This document shows positions 2,337 through 37,169 of a stretch of 64,000 bases of DNA, one piece after another. Position numbers and translations under genes: made by a program. This DNA is from Nymphaea colorata (lineage: Eukaryota; Streptophyta; Magnoliopsida; Nymphaeales; Nymphaeaceae): NCBI RefSeq assembly GCF_008831285.2, contig NC_045146.1:9250972-9314971 (forward strand), given 5' to 3'. How positions within the stretch are numbered: the first letter of the stretch is position 1; each line of letters begins with the position of its first letter. Below the pieces are notes generated by a model, which had not been told where the DNA came from, ran no database searches, and saw nothing but the letters and a program-made list of their open reading frames with translations.

Positions 2337-2698
2337 CTATGGCTTCAACCTTCGCCATCTTTCAGCATCATTTGACGTTCGACAATCTAAGCAGGCATGC
2401 ATAAAAACATTTATGTGAGTAGTAGCACCTAAATTTACCCACCAAGTGTTTCTGGTTACTGAAGTTAAATTAACCTCAGAACAAACTAAAGTGAGAAGTG
2501 TAACTTTTCTTTCACGCCATGCGTGATACTTAGTACAATCCTTCTCCATATGACCTTCACCCTTGCAAAAGAAGTAGCCTTATTTGCGTTCCTTATGCTT
2601 CTTCTATATCTTAATTAATGAATTATCAATTGTAACTTCCTTAACAGTCTTTCCTTTATTACTATTAAAATTTGACCCATTTAACTCAGGAATAGTAC
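2337..2698 (-). pseudogene. Copia-A gag tail, zinc knuckle and protease start (broken)
   Basis: From 2698 leftward on the minus strand the frame begins with TIPELNGSNFN, the N-terminal gag motif. It then jumps to a Lys-rich spacer and the zinc knuckle YFFCKGEGHMEKDC at about 2530-2585, where the first Cys of the CCHC motif is Tyr. Further on, WWVNLGATTHI (about 2420-2460) is the aspartic protease motif, in which the usual Asp-Ser-Gly-Ala reads Asn-Leu-Gly-Ala. The missing Cys and catalytic Asp, plus two stop codons near 2580-2620, show the copy is dead. The short distance from LNGSNF to the knuckle shows that most of gag is deleted. Confidence 0.85.
2694..2698. repeat. Target site duplication, left copy (AGTAC)
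   Basis: AGTAC directly precedes the TG of the left LTR. The same five bases follow the right LTR at 12257-12261. Removing the element and one copy restores a continuous gag reading frame on the minus strand. Confidence 0.9.
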
Positions 2699-2869
2699 TG
2701 TAATTACCCCAAATTTTTTCAAAAAGAATGCCCTTTTTTATTAAAAACACAAAACCCAATTTTTGGATCTAAATTGGTCCAAAGCTACAATCCAAATCCA
2801 AATTAGATCCAAAAACCCAAGTTCAAAACCAAATCAAGCATTTGAGATCCATTTACCCTTCCTTTTAAC

Positions 2870-3410
2870 AAAAGGACCTCCTTTTAGAGAGTGATTTTGG
2901 TCTTTTTGGTAAACAAGACTCATTTGCCCCTCTTTTTTATAAAGAACTTCCTTTTAGAGGGTAATTTTGGTCTTTTTGGGTGGACAAGGCCAATTTGCCC
3001 TACATTTTGATAAAAAAAATCTCCTTTTAGAGGGTGATTTTAGTCTTTTCAGGTGGACAAGATTAATTTGTCCTTCTTTTTGACAAAAAAATCTCCTTTT
3101 AGAGGGTTATTTTATTCTTTTTGGGTGGACAAGATCAATTTGCCATTTCTTTTGAGAAAAAATCTCCTTTTAAAGGGTGATTTTAGTCTTTTTGAGTCGA
3201 CAAGACCAATTTACCATTTCTTTTGACAAAAAGTATCCTTTTAGAGGGTGATTTTAGTCTTTTTGGGTGAACAAGACCAATTTGTTCTTCTTTTGACAAA
3301 AAAACTCCTTTTAGATGGTGATTTTAGCCTTTTTGGGTGGATATGACCCATTTGCCCTTCCTTTTGACAAAAACATCTCCTTTTAAAGAATGATTTTAGT
3401 CTTTTTAGGT
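2870..3410 (+). repeat. ~60-70 bp tandem repeat array in LTR U3
   Basis: About eight imperfect units of the form CTCCTTTTAGAGGGTGATTTT, then a CTTTTTGGGTGGACAAGA block, then an AATTTGCC block. The array is upstream of the TATA box, so it is in the U3 promoter part. It recurs in the 3' LTR at about 9470-10010. Translating it gives only repetitive spurious ORFs. Confidence 0.85.
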
Positions 3411-3450
3411 AAAAAAAATTCAAATTTAAGGTTTTGGCTATAAAATCCTC

Positions 3451-3458
3451 TATAAATA
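3451..3458 (+). promoter_or_regulatory. LTR TATA box
   Basis: TATAAATA lies about 750 bp into the LTR, followed by a CT-rich stretch where transcription would start (R region). The same box is at 10052-10059 in the 3' LTR. Assignment is by motif and position only. Confidence 0.6.
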
Positions 3459-6400
3459 CTCCTCACTTCCCCCCTCTTGGGCAAGATTGGCCTTTGGGAG
3501 AAACTCTAGTGTATTCTCACTTGAAGACTTAGAGTTTCTCTTGAGCTCTCTTTCTCTCCCTCTTCATCTTTTCTCTTCTCTTCAACTTGGAGCACGCCAC
3601 AACCCTCTTGGAGGCATCATCTTGGAGCTTCACTCAAGGGGATCTTCAATCTAGGGTGTTCATTTTTCCAAAAGCTATTCTCATTAGATGTATGTAATCA
3701 ATATATCATCTCTTTCTTTCTTCATTTTCCTCTCTTCTTCATCTCTCCATGGCCAAAGAAGATAACACTCAACCTCTTTTTAGAGACAAGAGGCTATGCT
3801 CAAGTGCACCGGGAGCATGGAAAGATGAGATAATCTTTTATTTCATGATTGAATCATGTTTTCCCTTTTATTGAATGTAGCATTGTCGTGTTTTCTTCAT
3901 TTTCTTCTCATCTTTATCTCCCCATGGCCAAAGGAGATAACACTCAATCTCTTCTTAAAGACAAGAGACTATGCTCAAGTGCACTGGGAGCATGGAAAGA
4001 TGAGATGATCATTTATTTCAGAGTTATATTATGCTCTCCTTCCTAGTTGAATCTTTCTCTCTCTCTCTCTCTCTTTCCTCCCTTGAAAATTGTCCATGTA
4101 TCACCCATGCATAGTTGTTTTGTTTTTCGTCTATATGTGAATGTATGGTGGGAATGAAAGTGTGGTTTAGGGATTCTTTATCTTCATATTGATTTTTGAG
4201 GTTAGGACTTCTCCAACCCGGGGAAACCCTCACGAATATGTACATGTTAATATGCATTTGCATGACATTTCGCGTTAGTTTCCTTTTAATCATCCCATTA
4301 AGAACTCTAATGAACATCTTATTGTATGATTTGTTTTCTTTCATACCCAATAGTGGAAGAAATATATCTCTTGTGGCAAACCAAATCATAACATTCTATG
4401 TTTTTATATAAATCATATTTTCCAAAACATTTTCAAAAGAAATCTCTCTAATGCGGTCTCAGAGACTTAGCTTAGGCTCTTGCATGAGTCCAAGCTCCCT
4501 TCCGGCCTATATCAAAATTTGAAGTCGGCTATTTTCAAATCATTCCTTGATTTTCATATTCATGAAAACGTATGCATATATACATGTCATATACATATGC
4601 ATGCACATGAATATCTTTCTTTGTTGTTTCTCTTTCTATGATTTAACATACTTTTATAAACTCTTGTATACGTATATATAAATATATATATATATATATA
4701 TGTACGTGTATTCCATTTTAAAATCTCTCTTTCTCTTTCTAAAATGATATTCTCTTCTCTACTTGATATAAACATCATTTTCATAAGCTTTCATATATGT
4801 ATACAAATACATATCTTTCTTTTTCAAAACATGTGATTTTATGATTTTCAAGATATTTTTCTTTATCTATATCCCTCTTTGGATCTTAGTCCTTCATCTT
4901 TTTCATTCTTCCAATATCTTACCATTTAATATTTTAATTTTTCATTCACCGACTTCATTAAGACCACAACTCAAGTAATGACCCAATATTGGATTCATGC
5001 TTGATGGTCTACAATCCCAATCCATTTTCAAAAACTTTTCTTTCCTATATATGATAACTATAAAAATAAAAATCTTAGATGTATGTTATGGTAGGAATGC
5101 CTTAGATGAATATTGTGTTAGGAATGAGTCATTTTTCTTTCATTCATCTTAGGATTGATGCATCCATGCATTCACTTCCACTCAATATCATAAATGAGCA
5201 CAAACACATCTCTAAAAGAATTTAGGGAAGATGAGATGAAGCTCTAACTAAGTTGTAACCGAATGAGAGAAAAATCTCAAGCCTACTTAAAGTCTTAAGA
5301 GAACACTAAAATGATTTCAAAGTGATTCTCAAGCTTTTCAAATGATATTTAAAAGATTTCTCAACTCTAGTTTTCATCAAAATGTTTCACATTTTCAAGC
5401 AATTGTTCAAGAACCTTTTCAAAAGTTTGAAACTTCAAACTTCCAATATTTTTTTACACCGCATATAGAAAAGATGTTTAAGCCAAAATGAAATACTTCA
5501 ATAATAAACATAGCCCTTGGATTGATTACCCCCGGTAAAGGCGCTGTGAACGGTTGATCCTCGTACCGACGGGCGAGTCCCTTTCTCTTTTACTTTCAAA
5601 TAAAAATCTCATTTTTCTAGAGCACTCCAAAATCAACCAAAAATTTTGGGGATGCAAACAAATGGCGATCGTGATGGGACCCGTCATCGTTTGGCTATGA
5701 TTATAATTGATGCATTTTTACTAACTTGAACATCCCACATATTGTCAATGATAAAGCATGTCCCCTATTTTGACATTGACCCCATTGGCACTTCATTGCA
5801 TTGCTTAGTGATTGTGTTTGCTTTCTTGCATATCAGACTAATTGAGGAGGATCAATCATGTACACCTAGATCTAGTATCAAATAGAACCCTCCTTAATTT
5901 AAGAGTTGTTTGAAGATAATGTTTGTTCTTCTTCTTATTTTAATCATCATCTTAGGCAACATTGCATTACAGACAACTCATTTTACATGATTTCTCATAT
6001 TTTAAAATTTCTCATACCTATTTTGTCCCGGTCATCATGTTATCGGGCTTAGTCTTAGGCGGTAGCACAAGACTAAGCTTTACAACTAGACCACACCTTG
6101 GGCGGTAAAACCCCCTCGTTAGTACCATAAGTGGTAATTTGTGGTATATCGACGAGTGTCCAAGAAGAAGTTGATAAACCTTACCATTAGTTGCCAAATG
6201 AAGAAGTCTATGCTCGTACTAAGCCTCTTGGCTAAAGTATATTGGCATATCTTATATGAAATAATTATACTCAATCAAACCCAATTCAATTTTGGTCCTA
6301 TGCTCCTTTTCCAAATAAATGCATGATAAATGTGACTTTAAAAAATGTTGGATGTTTATCATTATATGATGATTGCATGTTTGTTTTTCGTACAATCTTT

Positions 6401-9210: not shown

Positions 9211-9299
9211 CTCCAAAAATGTTTTGTTTGAAAAATTTGTGGTGCTTATCTTTGTCACTAAGCACGGTTAGCACCAGCTCAGTAACAAAGAGGGGCATC

Positions 9300-12256
9300 T
9301 TTAATCACCCCAAATTTTTTCAAAAAGAATGCCCTCTTTTATTAAAAACACAAAACCCAATTTTTGGATCTAAATTGGTCCAAAGCCACAATCCAAATCC
9401 AAATTAGATCCAAAAACCCAAGTTCAAAACCAAATCATGCATTTGAGATCCATTTACCCTTCCTTTTAACAAAAAGACCTCTTTTTAGAGGGTGATTTTG
9501 GTCTTTTTGGTAAACAAGACTCATTTGCCCCTCTTTTTTATAAAGAACTTCCTTTTAGAGGGTAATTTTGGTCTTTTTGGGTGGACAAGACCAATTTGCC
9601 CTTCATTTTGATAAAAAAAATCTCCTTTTAGAGGGTGATTTTAGTCTTTTCAGGTGGACAAGATTAATTTGTCCTTCCTTTTGACAAAAAAACCTCCTTT
9701 TAGAGGGTGATTTTATTCTTTTTGGGTGGACAAGATCAATTTGCCATTTCTTTTGAGAAAAAATCTCCTTTTAGAGGGTGATTTTAGTCTTTTTGAGTCG
9801 ACAAGACCAATTTGCCATTTCTTTTGACAAAAAGTATCCTTTTAGAGGGTGATTTTAGTCTTTTTGGGTGAACAAGACCAATTTGTTCTTCTTTTGACAA
9901 AAAAACTCCTTTTAGATGGTGATTTTAGCCTTTTTGGGTGGATATGACCCATTTGCCTTTCCTTTTGACAAAAAAATCTCCTTTTAAAGAATGATTTTAG
10001 TCTTTTTAGGTAAAAAAAATTCAAATTTAAGGTTTTGGCTATAAAATCCTCTATAAATACTCCTCACTTCCCCCCTCTTGGGCAAGATTGGCCTTTGGGA
10101 GAAACTATAGCGTATTCTCACTTGAAGACTTAGAGTTTCTCTTGAGCTCTCTTTCTCTCCCTCTTCATCTTTTCTCTTCTCTTCAACTTGGAGCACGCCA
10201 CAACCCTCTTGGAGGCATCATCTTGGAGCTTCACTCAAGGGGATCTTCAATCTAGGGTGTTCATTTTTCCAAAAGCTATTCTCATTAGAGGTATGTAATC
10301 AATATCTCATCTCTTTCTTTCTTCATTTTCCTCTCTTCTTCATCTCTCCATGGCCAAAGAAGATAACACTCAACCTCTTTTTAGAGACAAGAGTCTATGC
10401 TCAAGTGCACCGGGAGCATGGAAAGGTGAGATAATCTTTCATTTCATGATTGAATCATGTTTTCCCTTTTATTGAATGTAGCATTGTCTTGTTTTCTTCA
10501 TTTTCTTCTCATCTTTATCTCCCCATGGCCAAAGGAGATAGCACTCAATCTCTTCTTAAAGACAAGAGACTATGCTCAAGTGCACTGGGAGCATGGAAAG
10601 ATGAGATGATCATTTATTTCAGAGTTATATTATGCTCTCCTTCCTAGTTGAATCTTTCTCTCTCTCTCTCTCTCTTTCCTCCCTTGAAAATTGTCCATGT
10701 ATCACCCATGCATAGTTGTTTTGTTTTTCGTCTATATGTGAATGTATGGTGGGAATGAGAGTGTGGTTTAGGGATTCTTTATCTTCATATTGATTTTTGA
10801 GGTTAGGACTTCTCCAACCCGGGGAAACCCTCACGAATATGTACATGTTAATATGCATTTGCATGACATTGCGCGTTAGTTTCCTTTTAATCATCCCATT
10901 AAGAACTCTAATGAACATCTTATTGTATGATTTGTTTTCTTTCATACCCAATAGTGGAAGAAATATATCTCTTGTGGCAAACCAAATCATAACATTCTAT
11001 ATTTTTATATAAATCATATTTTCCAAAACATTTTCAAAAGAAATCTCTCTAATGCGGCCTCGGAGACTTAGCTTAGGCTCTTGCATGAGTCCAAGCTCCC
11101 TTCCGGCCTATATCAAAATTTGAAGTCGGCTATTTTCAAATCATTCCTTGATTTTCATATTCATGAAAACGTATGCGTATATACATGTTATATACGTATG
11201 CATGCACATGAATATCTTTCTTTGTTGTTTCTCTTTCTATGATTTAACATACTTTTATAAACTCTTGTATACGTATATATAAATATATATATATATGTAC
11301 GTGTATTCCATTTTAAAATCTCTCTTTCTCTTTCTAAAATGATATTCTCTTCTCTACTTGATATAAACATCATTTTCATATGCTTTCATATATGTATACA
11401 AATACATATCTTTCTTTTTCAAAACATGTGATTTTATGATTTTCAAGATATTTTTCTTTATCTATATCCCTCTTTGGATCTTAATCCTTCATCTTTTTCA
11501 TTCTTCCAATATCTTACCATTTAATATTTTCATTTTTCATTCACCGACTTCATTAAGACCACAACTCAAGTAATGACCCAATATTGGATTCATGCTTGAT
11601 GGTCTACAAGCCCAATCCATTTTCAAAAACTTTTCTTTCCTATATATGATAACTATAAAAACAAAAATCTTAGACTGTATGTTATGGTAGGAATGGCTTA
11701 GATGAATATTGTGGTAGTTATGAGTCATTTTTCTTTTATTCATCTTAGGATTGATGTATCCATGCATTCACTTCCACTCAATATCATAAATGAGCACAAA
11801 CACATCTCTAAAAGAATTTAAGGAAGATGAGATGAAGCTCTAACTAAGTTGTAACCGAATTAGAGCAAAATCTCAAGCCTACTTAAAGTCTTAAGAGAAC
11901 ACTAAAATGATTTCAAAGTGATTCTCAAGCTTTTCAAATGATATTTAAAAGATTTCTCAACTCTAGTTTTCATCAAAATGTTTCACATTTTCAAGCAATT
12001 GTTCAAGAACCTTTTCAAAAGTTTGAAACATCAAACTTTCAATATTCTTCTACACTGCATATAGAAAAGATGTTTAAGCTAAAATTAAATGCGTTAATAA
12101 TAAACATAGTCCTTGGATTGATTACCCCCGGTAAAGGCACTGGGAACGGTTGATCCTCGTACCGACGGGTGAGTCCCTTTCTCTTTTATTTTCAAATAAA
12201 AATCTCATTTTTCTGGAGCACTTCAAAACCAACCAAAAATTTTAGGGATGCAAAAA
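9300..12256 (+). repeat. 3' LTR of the LARD-like element
   Basis: Aligned base for base with 2699-5660. The terminal TG is TT here (9300-9301), so this end has mutated since insertion. Tandem units recur at about 9470-10010, the TATA box at 10052-10059, and the CCATGGCCAAAG duplication at about 10350 and 10525. It ends GATGCAAAAA at 12256, directly before the right TSD. Confidence 0.93.
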
Positions 12257-12261
12257 AGTAC
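12257..12261. repeat. Target site duplication, right copy (AGTAC)
   Basis: AGTAC follows the last base of the 3' LTR and matches 2694-2698 exactly. Confidence 0.9.
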
Positions 12262-17696: not shown

Positions 17697-19535
17697 TCAA
17701 GCAAACCAGAGAGACGACTCCAGCTTTTGCATCTCCGGCCCCCGTGGAAAGGAGTCGGAATAGTCCATGGGTATAAAGGATGCTCCAAACTTGAAACCAG
17801 AGCTCATGTCATGGGGAAATTCGTCAAAGGCCTGGTCCAACATCTTGCACTGATCTAATTGGAGATCATCTCGGAGGAGGAGATTCATGCCAGAGTTATG
17901 GGCGCCAAAGTCACTTCCTTCAAAGGTACTGTTGCTTTCATGTCCTCCAGTCTGAGTATTACTAGTCTGTGGAAGGTCAAGAAGGTTCTTATCATCGGCA
18001 GGAGCCAGGCTTATTTGGTTCTTGCTCTGCTGCTCATACATAGCGAAGAGATGGTTGATCGATTTCTGTCCGTCCACCGGAATTCCCAGGCCGGAGAGAG
18101 GCACGGGATTGGAATTAACAACCATATTCTGGGGAGTTCGTTGCAGCATAGGAGGAGGAGGAGGAGCTAGCAAATTGGCATCCTTGCTCGGCACATAAGC
18201 AGTTCTGCTTACAGTAACAGCCGGCGGGTTCGGCTGCTGCATCCCATGCAGAGTGACCCCCTGAGGGAAACTCCCCGAGTAAAGGCAGTTAGATACCTGG
18301 TTGTTCCTCGCGCTTTTGTGCAGGAAGCCGATCCCATGATCGCGTTGGAGGCGCTCGATGCTGTCACAGGTGAAGACCTTCTGGTCCAGCATCAGATGCT
18401 CGACTGGAAGCTTCCTCTTCCGCGTGCAGTCGGGAGGAGTTTCTGCCTTGATCGATTGAAGCTGGAACCTCTCTCCTGCGATCGACCCCAGGCTGAAGAC
18501 ATCAGGCTTACGCTCCTGGATCTGCATGTCACCGTCGTCCTCATAGCCATCAACATCATACTCGTTGCTTAATCCACTGAAAGCAAGCATCCCGCTTCCG
18601 CTCAGGGACGCCATGGGAAGGCTGGCGTCCGGGTTCATCTGGCGGGCGATAATCTCCTCCTGGTTTACCACAGCCGACCACGTCGAACTTTCCTTTGCTG
18701 TCATCTTGTCCTGCAGGCATTTCGACTGCCGAACAAGCCTCCGGATCTTGTCCATATCCGGAGAGATGTGCTTTATCACAGCAGTGAGCACACCAACCTT
18801 CCATGCCTTCTTGAGGTCGTGAGGCTTCTTGTAAGGGGGAGGACCCTGGTCCTTCCGCAGCCCCAACTGAGGCCACCAATCCTCCTTGCCGGTCGGCCAC
18901 CACGGTGGAGCTAAACCTTTCTCCAGCGGGAACCGCCTCTGAGGCGGTTCGCAGTGCTGCATAAGGGCAGACAACAGAGACCCCAGCGTGGTGTCCTGTA
19001 GCTCCTGAAGAGTCTGAGGTGTAGAGACCATGGCCGGGCTTTCCTCGTCGGTTCCGGGAATAGCGTTCTCCGCCTGATACTTGGCAATCGCAGCAGGGCC
19101 ATTCCGGTCGAACCGGACCTTCTCCTTCCACCAGGCGCGCAGATTATCAGAGGCGCCGCTGACGGGTTTTCCCTTCTCGGGGATGATTCCGTAGACGAAT
19201 CCCTGTGCCTTGCAGACCTCCATCATCTTAAGCATGTACTTGAGGATCCCGTCCTGCGCCCTGGACATCTTCTTCCGCCGTGCCTGCTCCTGCGACTGCC
19301 TCTGCTTGGCGATGTCTCCGTTCTCCTTGGCCTTATTCTGCTCCTTCAGCCGCCTCAACCGGATTCGGTCCCTCCACATCCTCCGCTCAAGCTCATCGAC
19401 ATCAATCTCCTCCTCACTCTCGTCGTCATCCTGCAGCACCTGTTCTTCGTGCCCAATTGCTTGGTCGCACTCCGAAGGCTGGAGTGGCAGAGGAAGGAGA
19501 TCGAAGCTCCCTCCAAAACCTATATCTTCGTACAT
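17697..19535 (-). CDS. EIL: EIN3/EIL-family ethylene-response transcription factor, 612 aa, intact
   Basis: EIN3-like nuclear regulator that binds promoters such as ERF genes when ethylene signalling stabilises it. Seen in order: acidic N-terminus with [18 protein letters not shown] (37-53), first basic region [17 protein letters not shown] (52-68), second basic region [20 protein letters not shown] (86-105) followed by [18 protein letters not shown] (112-129), the tryptophan-rich [15 protein letters not shown] block (211-225), and the basic [15 protein letters not shown] motif (236-250), which is near-invariant in EIN3. A Pro-rich stretch (LAPPPPPML) follows in the variable C-terminal half. 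The single uninterrupted coding exon and ~600-residue length fit the family. The start is set by the acceptor 17 nt upstream and by the conserved N-terminus. It is GC-richer than its surroundings. The exact orthologue (EIN3 or EIL1-5) is not resolved. Confidence 0.97.
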
Positions 19536-19552
19536 ACCCGTGGAGTTTTCAC

Positions 19553-19826
19553 CTGAACCAATTCAAAAGACCACAACTTACAAAACACAGGAAACCAGCT
19601 GCCTTCATGACCCAAATAACTAACAATTCGGGAAACAAAGAACCGATTGCAGAAACAACGAACCTGGACAAAGAAGCATGACGGAATCGAAGAAGACGAG
19701 GAGAAGGAGGAGAAGGGAGAGGAGCCTCCGTCTCAGGCACGACAGAGAAAGCCAAACAGCAGGGCAGAACTACGACGGCTCGAAATTCCCCTGCATCCAT
19801 ATGTTGAAGAAGGAAAAGGCGTCAGC

Positions 19827-33020: not shown

Positions 33021-33558
33021 TGCTTGCATGCTTAGACTACATGTGTGTAAATCATGCTCAATGTTACCACAAGAAGCACCTTCTCTATTCAATTTGCTTT
33101 AGTGAATGCTTGAAATGATTCTCCTTGAACTCCTTTTAGTGGTAGCTCATATATGATTATTGACAACTTTAATATGTTCTTCTTCCACTTCTATGTTTAA
33201 CAACACTTTTTCTACACACTTTCATTGACTTGCCTTGCTTCAACAACATTGGTAAGTGACTCACTCAATTATAGGTTGTCGAGATCTTGTAACAATTCAT
33301 CAATTCTCTCTAATGCTTGATCAACACATATGTGACATAATAATGCTTTATTCATGCACAAATTTGCCTTTAATTAAAGAATGTTCATGTTTGTTAGTAC
33401 ATAAGTATTTCATATGATTTTGATTGGAAACAAGAAAATCTTTGTAGACAACGTTTCTTAACAAGATTAGTTCATCTTTTGAGTACATAAATAGGTGGTA
33501 ATTTGTCTACTCATTCTACATAGAATACTGCAAACATATGACAACACACAAACACCTA

Positions 33559-35410
33559 GGGCCCGTTTGATGGGCTGGAAAAGTATTGTAGCCTAGGAAA
33601 AAAATTTCAAAATTTTAAAATATTTCTGGTTTATCAAACGCGGAAATATATTTCTGACCATTGAGGCTGGAATCGGAAATATATTTCCGGAAAAATATTT
33701 CCATTGCGAGAGGTGGAAATATTTTTCTAGGTTTCTTTTTGCCCGTTAGGGCACGCTCGCTACACTCTTCATCTCCTCTCAACGGCAGTTTTTCCATTCC
33801 CCGGCCATCTCCACAGCAATGCCACCTTTGTGCAGCAGCTCGACCATTCGGTATCACCACCCTTGTTCTCTTTTTCCTGCCGGCCCTTTGTGTGAAGGAT
33901 GGAGGTGTGTCTAGGATCGACTGCTCAGTCCCTTTTCCCCTCTCACGCTTCCGTTCATCCTTGCTTCTTTGGTTTCCCTCAGAACTTCAGATTCCCCCAT
34001 TACAGCACTCATGGAAGAAGGCAGAGCCTGGTCATTACGAATGCCGTTGCGGTGGAGCAGAGTTCTCAAATGAAGGTTTCCCTTGTTAAGATTGGTACAA
34101 GAGGAAGGGGTTGTTTCTATTTTTCTTTTGCTGCATTGTTGTTGGTTGTTTTCTGTATATTCAGTGGTCTCCATTGCATGTAGTTGGTGTGATCTCTATT
34201 GCTTTTCTATTGTTGAAAGTTCATGTGCGTATATGTTACTTTTTCTCTATTTTATTGATTTGAATTAAATTAGATGAGATTAAAGGATATTCTTTCTACA
34301 CGAAGCGCTAGAAGTGCTCTTTTGTTTTTGCATCCTTTTCCACTTAGATTGATCTTTTGAAGCTTAACTTCTGAAAATGTGTTTTCCAAACAATGTGTGG
34401 TTTACCACTCCATAATGGTGATGATTAAAAAAAACAAATTCATTTGTGAACATCTTTTGTTTTGCTTACTTCTCTGTTGAAAAAAGTGGAAAATTTCACT
34501 GTTCATATGAAGCTGGATTGTGAATTGGGCACATATGTTCTGCAAGTTACTGCTTATTGTATCATTATAGATACACTTGATTTAGCATAACCAAGACATG
34601 CTCTGCCTTGCCGATTGTAATTTTCTAACTGCATTTTGTTGCTGGCGCTTCCTTCAGCAGCTCCCTTGACGAAAGTAATGTGTCTGGATCATGCTTTTTG
34701 GTAGGTTATGCTTCCATTTTCCTTTTCCGTTCTTGAATCTGAAAGAGGTAGTTGTTGAGAGTAATAGGTTACGACAGCTTAAATATTGACACTACAAGAA
34801 GATGAATGTATGCACCTATTATCAGTTTCCAATACCTATGTTTCTGCTATAACATAGTTAACACCATAGTCGTGGTGACTGGAAAGCAGCAAGTTTTCAA
34901 AGGAACTTTTCTCAAGACCCTTCATGGTAAACACTGCAATATGGTGTGAAAGTGGAGGAAGATGGTGTGAAAGTGGAGGTTGTTCTCATAATTGGCTTGT
35001 TCCAGGCTTCTGCCTTGCTCTTTGCTAGTAGTATTAAAGTATATGTGCGAAGGTTAATATTTTATTAAGAAATGTTATTTTGGCAATTGATGTTATATTA
35101 TTTATTAAGATTATAGTTGTTGAATAACTGATAGTTGATCTTCACGTTCATTGTATCGCTGGTTGTGGTTTGGTAAATGGTTTATTATTTATCTTTGTGT
35201 TTAAGAAACTATATCAAAAGATTATGTAAATCTGGAAATATGTTTCCTTATTATCAAACTAAAAAATAACTTTCTGTTAATATGGAAATGTATTTCTCAG
35301 TCATCACACACACATCAAAATGGGAAGGATTTTTCTCATTTCTTTATTCTAAAAAATATATTTTCAGAAATATTTTTCCAATTCCAGTTTCCAATCCATC
35401 AAACGAGCCC
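33559..35410. mobile_element. PIF/Harbinger-like non-autonomous element (1852 bp) carrying a HEMC exon (Pack-type)
   Basis: The left end GGGCCCGTTTGATGGGCTGG and the reverse complement of the right end, GGGCTCGTTTGATGGATTGG, are near-identical TIRs. The flanking 3-bp TSD is CTA (33556-33558 and 35411-35413). The short TSD and GGGC-TTTG ends fit PIF/Harbinger (Tourist) elements, although TTA is the usual target, so the superfamily is likely but not certain. Subterminal GGAAATATATTTCC-like palindromes occur near both ends (33640-33735 and 35230-35380). It has no transposase. It carries the first exon of porphobilinogen deaminase and interrupts an FRS SWIM finger. Confidence 0.85.
33899..34107 (+). 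pseudogene. HEMC: Captured exon 1 of porphobilinogen deaminase (hydroxymethylbilane synthase)
   Basis: A 69-codon open segment starts at ATG 33899, with a Ser/Phe-rich chloroplast-transit-like N-terminus (ending near HGRRQSLVITN). It continues as AVAVEQSSQMKVSLVKIGTRG, interrupted here only for reading. The last part equals the start of mature plant HEMC, where IGTRGSPLALAQ follows. Here the match stops right after GTRG plus two bases, where the plant gene is expected to have its first intron, and intron-like T-rich sequence follows. The enzyme joins four porphobilinogens in plastid tetrapyrrole synthesis; this fragment lacks all catalytic domains. GC-rich sequence before the ATG (33730-33898) may be its 5' UTR. 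Confidence 0.75.
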
Positions 35411-37169
35411 CTAAAGATTTCCATAATTTGTAATAACAACTTAACATTTTTTGAAAAACATATTACATGAAATTGTGTACTTTTTAGTAATTATGAAAGG
35501 TGACTGACATCGTATCCTTTGCTTAATGGTATACACCATCACCTTATCATCAACTTGAGTAATCAACATACTACACATCATAGTTATGATCAGTTCTTTT
35601 ATGAAGTACTTGAACATCTCTGGCATAAATGAATCTCTAAATGATATTCTATAAAATGGAGTGTTTTAATAGGCTCAACCTCATTGTTCATTTTGAATTC
35701 CAAGTTGTTTTTGTTGTGCCATTGTCTATCTATTGCTTCTTGATATTTCACAACAAACTTTTATAAACTATTTATGGATTAACTCTATTCTTGAAATAGT
35801 TGTTCATGCACTCACTTCATTGAATTGTGGACATTCTGACCGTAAATGTATCACTAGAATATGGTTTACGCTTTGTCTCTCTCACTATATAAGTTGATCA
35901 CCCAATCAGTGGTTTCTAATTAAAGATATAATTATCATTTCAATACATCTTTCTTCAAATTCTTCTGTTGACTCTAACTTCAAAAACCACACATCCTATA
36001 ATTGTTTGAAATGTCTATTTTGTTTCAACAAGTTGCTCAAGTATGTTGGCACTTTTTGCATTATATGGCAATTGCAATATCTATGAACAGGTTATGGAAA
36101 GACATCCTTTGCAGTTTTTCTCATTGCAACATTTTGATTAGTCACTATTAAAATATGAGTTTGATAGCCCATCATGTTTAGCCATTCATCAAGAAGCCAC
36201 TTGAATGTTTCAACCTCTTAACCCACAACCAAAAATCATACTTTTGTTATGGTGATTTACATTTGTAAATGGAGCAAATGGCATATTGTATTTGTTCTTC
36301 TTATATGTTGTATCAAACGACACAATGTCTTCAAAATACTGATATTTTTTATGAGCAATTGCATCTACCCAAAAATAATTTCCAAAAATCCTGGTCTCAT
36401 CTACTTGAATGGAAAAATAAAAAATAGATTTTCAAGTGTCCTTTATTTGAAACAATTCTTCATAGGTTGTTGTCTTACATCCATAACCTATCATGCTTTC
36501 AATCTAGATCCAACCATAGTTTCCACAATATGTTTTTCAGGTTATTTCATCTTCTTTGCCGTCTTTTGGAAATTCACATTTGATGGTAAATGTAAGTAAT
36601 GACTATGTGCATATTGTGTATTGAACGCACACCATTTATTCTACTTTGAATCCATTTCGATGGACATCTGGGCCTTGCAGCCACATTTCAATAATGGCTG
36701 TTCACTTTTCTCATTGTGTTCCTATTTCTTCAAACCATTCTTCTTCCAACAATACTGCTTTCAATGTAGAATACATTTTCTATTCTTCGAGTCATATATC
36801 CTTATATCAAACTCACCTTGTCTTGCATATGTATTCCAAAACTTATGTGCACTTTTTAAACTATCAAATTTCATTTCACTCTCTAGTGTGATTCTTTTAC
36901 AACAGTTGGCACTAACCCTTGTTGCATGTTTGTCTCCTCGATACATAGTCTGTCACTGTTAGCATCTATTTCTTCATTTCATCTAATTCTTCATCACCCT
37001 CATTTCATCAACCACAATCTTAGCATCTATGGCTTTGCCATTTTCATTTTATTCATAATCAAAGTTTTTGGACATCTTCCTTAACATCAACATCTGTTGT
37101 ACTTTTGTTTGTAGATGTATCTAGCTTTTTCCATGTTTGAACTTATAGAGCTGCAATTTGTATCCATTT

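Follow-up and report, generated by a model that had tools for sequence, protein, structure and literature searches.

This locus raises the question of whether a mobile element has captured exon 1 of HEMC, the gene for porphobilinogen deaminase, and whether that exon could spread a plastid-targeting signal, as a preliminary description proposed. We analysed a window of 64,000 nucleotides (the whole stretch of DNA considered here, C9:9250972-9314971), and genome searches spanned 407.8 Mb in 783 contigs. At a probability of about 93%, we favour a non-autonomous Pack-PIF that captured part of HEMC from C14, was inserted at CTA on C9 and later decayed.

An element with a piece of HEMC inside

The element is an insertion on C9 that occupies 33559-35410 of the window (1,852 bp) with CTA on both flanks, in agreement with the size, terminal inverted repeats (TIRs) and 3-bp target-site duplication (TSD) first reported for it. 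Its TIRs are 15 bp long and differ at one base, and the extended arms are 23 nt long and 87% complementary. Its parts are as follows.

33556..33558: left TSD, CTA
33559..33573, plus strand: left TIR, 15 bp, GGGCCCGTTTGATGG
33559..33756, plus strand: left terminus of the transposable element, common to dispersed copies at 75-91% identity in the element-wide genome search; A/T-rich, with GGAAATATATTTCC motifs
33757..33853, plus strand: 97-bp stretch between the left terminus and the HEMC piece
33854..34946, plus strand: captured HEMC segment, comprising exon 1 with 45 bp of 5' flank before it and the start of intron 1 after it
33899..34107, plus strand: HEMC exon 1 copy, from the transit peptide to IGTRG and the AG of a split Ser codon; frame open
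34107..34109, plus strand: site at which 18 bp of the C14 gene have been deleted in the element; GT splice donor gone, element reads AAGGGGTT
34956..35172, plus strand: element-internal stretch that recurs at loci on C5, C14 and C1, of which the one on C1 has a DDE_Tnp_4 match
35173..35410, plus strand: right terminus of the transposable element; the matches of some copies start already at about 35103
35396..35410, minus strand: right TIR, GGGCTCGTTTGATGG
35411..35413: right TSD, CTA

A genome search with 33750-33860, which covers the 97-bp stretch, returned that sequence itself and no second locus.

Searching the genome with the captured segment alone gave three candidates, all of them scored: the segment itself, a locus on C14 and a locus on C11. 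The composite is therefore single-copy in the assembly. The C14 match consists of 1,070 bases at 89% identity plus a 40-bp piece and extends over both exon 1 and the start of intron 1; the donor locus lies at C14:10949609-10950741 on the minus strand, with 89% identity to the captured segment when gaps are counted and 85 mismatches among 1,076 aligned sites. Exon 1 of the C14 gene ends in ..GGTACAAGAGGAAG/GTAGGC and is followed by an intron of 7,575 bp, which gives way to exon 2 at ..GGACAG/TCCATTGGCACTTGCACAG. Exon 1 splices in frame (AG/T) to ...IGTRGSPLALAQAYETR..., the joined frame running ..KIGTRGSPLALAQAYETRDKL.., and the joined product of 204 residues matches 4htg ('Porphobilinogen deaminase, chloroplastic'), which we take to be the Arabidopsis protein, at E 8.3e-74. 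As this match begins at residue 50, it takes in the final 20 residues encoded by exon 1. A genome search with the Pfam profile Porphobil_deam found four exon matches, two each on C14 and C11, and the C14 exons lie downstream of exon 1 on the same strand. The 73-residue peptide of the element had no match in the PDB up to E 10, so the identity of the segment as HEMC, which had been proposed from its transit peptide and IGTRG start, is shown through the host locus. The HEMC paralogue on C11 was considered as donor and rejected, as it matches over 155 bases at 73%, against 1,070 at 89% for C14.

When the exon 1 differences were polarised with C11 by parsimony, seven fell to the element, seven to the C14 gene and six were ambiguous. 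Because seven changes lie on the C14 side, the present-day C14 gene is not simply the ancestor of the captured copy; CpG hypermutability could mimic part of these changes. As an observation on the host genes, there are two HEMC genes (L009/L029 and L027/L028), the one on C14, whose intron 1 measures 7.6 kb, and the other, shorter, on C11. By parsimony, equal numbers of polarised changes since the capture fall in exon 1 of the C14 gene and in the copy in the element (7 vs 7), hinting that the C14 transit peptide may be under loose constraint.

Elsewhere in the window, positions 2698-5661 and 9299-12257 form a direct duplication of about 2.96 kb at 97.5% identity, with starts 6.6 kb apart and internal repeats offset by about 71 bp. 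The minus strand carries an EIN3-like transcription factor at 17697-19562 (a 621-codon stop-to-stop frame; EIN3_DNA-bd, E 5.4e-131) and, at 516-1576, a Copia-type retrotransposon remnant in several frames (RVT_2, E 3.7e-18 for the scanned part, 516-980).

Apparent decay of the captured exon

The preliminary description held that the open segment stops where intron 1 is expected, and the C14 gene has its exon 1 boundary at the same place, but in the element the GT of the donor has been deleted. The donor site reads AAG/GTAGGC in C14, AAG/GTAAGC in C11 and AAGGGGTT in the element, which lacks 18 bp at the end of exon 1. Since C11 has a donor at the same place, the GT donor is ancestral. The 69-codon frame that starts at 33899 is open and continues for 25 codons past IGTRG into intron-derived sequence, ending at a stop after 94 codons.

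One alternative is that the exon has been retained as a functional transit-peptide module, either expressed from within the element or fused to adjacent sequence. Its ATG and 69-codon frame have been kept, and at seven sites where C14 differs the element agrees with C11. In addition, one codon before the ATG the element has a stop in the same frame, whereas the C14 frame continues without a stop to another ATG further upstream. In C11 the ATG that lies upstream is in a different frame, so the start at 33899 is probably the true one and the stop before it in the element may be harmless. An open frame is nevertheless what neutral change would often leave: in simulations with the mutation spectrum taken from intron counts, 60% of runs kept the frame open when 20 changes were made, as did 76% when there were 10. 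Mismatches to C14 were found at 5 of 45 flank sites, 20 of 209 exon sites and 60 of 822 intron sites, and the exon is no better conserved than the intron (p 0.31). The 20 exon differences comprise 18 non-synonymous and two synonymous ones, against a simulated mean of 15.6 non-synonymous in 20, with 18 or more in 16% of runs. Selection on the captured exon, for which we looked in these comparisons, was indistinguishable from neutral change. The first 50 residues contain three Lys and Arg in the element, compared with eight in C14 and four in C11, and only about 45 bp of HEMC sequence lies upstream of the ATG. Together with the deleted splice donor and the readthrough into intron-derived sequence, these results make a working module very improbable.

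Of 30 CpG sites in C14, 12 read TG or CA at the corresponding place in the element, compared with 1 of 16 in the reverse direction (p 0.018; the count is unpolarised), an excess that fits what decay of methylated DNA would leave. Neither of the properties of a functional transit-peptide exon considered here, a splice donor and coding constraint, was found in the element. The proposal that an intact exon on a mobile element could spread a plastid-targeting signal is not supported, because the donor is lost, no constraint is detectable and the captured segment has a single element copy in the assembly. The captured exon shows no detectable constraint and appears to be a decaying passenger without function.

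Recurring ends, transposase-bearing relatives and superfamily

Judged from the window only, the TIR pair is not far above chance: with up to three mismatches allowed it has two matches there, and 14 of 100 shuffles had at least two. Across the genome, the TIR preceded by TWA (TWAGGGCCCGTTTGATGG), with at most one mismatch, gave 778 matches (372 forward and 406 reverse), compared with none for the reversed control pattern in the same search, so the recurrence that was expected of true ends is found. A search with the whole element, in which 40 of 925 first-look candidates were scored, returned at least 56 matches, which are of three kinds: the termini (roughly 2-206 and 1548-1858, all numbered from 33556), the HEMC locus (299-1368, or to 1391 past an indel) and a 215-217-bp tail stretch (1401-1617) found on C5, C1 and C14. 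Two sister elements, 1,418 and 1,382 bp long, align over their whole length at 86.5% identity, which indicates that the family amplified long copies. Only TIR pairs with equal 3-bp flanks entered the TSD tally, six including this element (CTA); the other five, among the fetched loci, have TAA (three), TTA (one) and CAA (one). At a further locus, L016, both TIRs are present and their flanks are unequal.

The tail-sharing locus on C1 resembles the element at positions 1-135 (80%), 1398-1614 (90%) and 1642-1811 (77%) of the element itself, has a DDE_Tnp_4 match between the shared parts and has CTA before its left TIR. We looked for its right TIR and found none, and its upstream ORF had no Pfam match. 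Three further loci, chosen because a DDE_Tnp_4 match sits between convergent TIRs, all have perfect 15-bp TIRs, with TSDs of TAA, TTA and TAA; beyond the TIR they show no similarity to the element at E 1e-4. The one of the three that was scanned (L054) has a Myb/SANT-like ORF besides DDE_Tnp_4 between the same 15-bp TIRs. Assignment to PIF/Harbinger is supported by this relative, which shares portions of both termini and codes for a DDE_Tnp_4 transposase. These results bear out the description of the locus as a Pack-type PIF/Harbinger-like element, with HEMC inside the TIRs, recurring ends and DDE_Tnp_4 in a relative.

An observation that counts against PIF/Harbinger is the TSD of this copy, CTA rather than TTA or TAA, which would suit membership of another TIR group such as hAT or CACTA. 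The left edge, TAGGG, also recalls hAT ends. Inspection of the flanks by eye, however, revealed no 8-bp TSD at the element, sister copies have 3-bp TAA or TTA TSDs, and DDE_Tnp_4 and Myb/SANT genes lie between the same 15-bp TIRs, with DDE_Tnp_4 also in the C1 relative; we therefore regard another TIR group as highly unlikely. Published Pack-PIFs depart from the canonical TSD as well: PMC8903248 gives TTA/TAA for 52.4% in rice and 81.2% in maize.

A different gene piece, probably in a related element, was seen on C5. A Lysine_decarbox/LOG-like exon at L051:5300-6040 (C5:12513300-12514040) adjoins the PIF tail common to these loci and is close to a right TIR; the left end of this element was not found. 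The exon shares 96% identity with C3:12179387-12180109. Upstream of it, the C3 locus has another exon-like frame, which has no Pfam match of its own; no TIR within two mismatches was seen at the C3 locus. The C5 exon is probably a second captured gene. It is conceivable, if a long shot, that the HEMC copy is a transcribed, translatable transit-peptide segment with intron-derived readthrough, in a lineage that repeatedly captures and distributes gene pieces (HEMC and the LOG-like exon on C5); such a PIF/Harbinger lineage would supply new plastid-targeted or chimeric peptides.

That the HEMC piece came by segmental duplication and has TIRs around it by chance would suit the single copy of the composite, but it can be dismissed, since both termini are the ends of a large transposable element family and the HEMC homology lies wholly within them, with none outside the TIRs in the whole-element genome search or the C14 alignment.

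Origin, age and comparison with known systems

The Pack-PIF reading would start from a deletion derivative of a transposase-coding element, the centre of which would have given way to a copy of about 1.1 kb of the C14 HEMC gene. The product would then have been inserted on C9, generating the 3-bp CTA TSD with transposase supplied by a related element, and decay would have followed. The piece may have been gained by template switching while an excision gap was repaired, as is generally proposed for Pack elements. Alternatively, it may have been gained by mobilisation of neighbouring insertions, a route put forward for Pack-TYPE capture in PMC8903248. The composite is flanked by the CTA TSD but has one copy in the assembly, and capture may also have taken place after insertion, at the present site. 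PMC7015852 gives Ks 0.9 at 107 Ma for Nymphaea colorata, from which we calculate a rate of about 4.2e-9 per site per year. Read at that rate, and if this species is the host, the intron divergence of 0.077 would place the capture roughly 9 million years ago; the capture would be more recent if methylated DNA decays faster.

Among known systems, Pack-MULEs resemble the element in capturing gene fragments that include exon and intron. Mutator TIRs are long, with TSDs of 9-11 bp; the element, with 15-bp TIRs (23-nt arms) and a 3-bp TSD, is not a Pack-MULE by this structure. Tourist-like MITEs share its PIF/Harbinger-type ends and TSD but, unlike them, it is 1.85 kb long and contains host DNA. For 'transit peptide' together with 'Pack-MULE', the literature search led to a paper on EPSPS amplification. 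Among the matches listed, 'Pack-PIF' occurs in PMC8903248 only, and no Harbinger gene capture in Nymphaea is described in their titles or abstract openings; the main text of PMC8903248 contains no occurrence of 'Nymphaea'. The remark that gene capture is less well known in PIF/Harbinger elements was fair, but Pack-PIFs have been described in rice and maize, according to PMC8903248. Like those Pack-PIFs, as presented there, the element has PIF/Harbinger TIRs, a 3-bp TSD, no transposase and a piece of a host gene. Unlike them, its host is probably a water lily, it is single-copy in the assembly, and it contains exon 1 together with some of intron 1 but no longer the splice donor. The locus is thus a new example of the known Pack-PIF process, ordinary though clear. 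It probably extends Pack-PIF capture to water lilies, it shows how a captured exon decays, with loss of a splice site and change of CpG to TG or CA, and it is a clean case in which one genome contains the donor gene, the sister copies and also a relative with a transposase.
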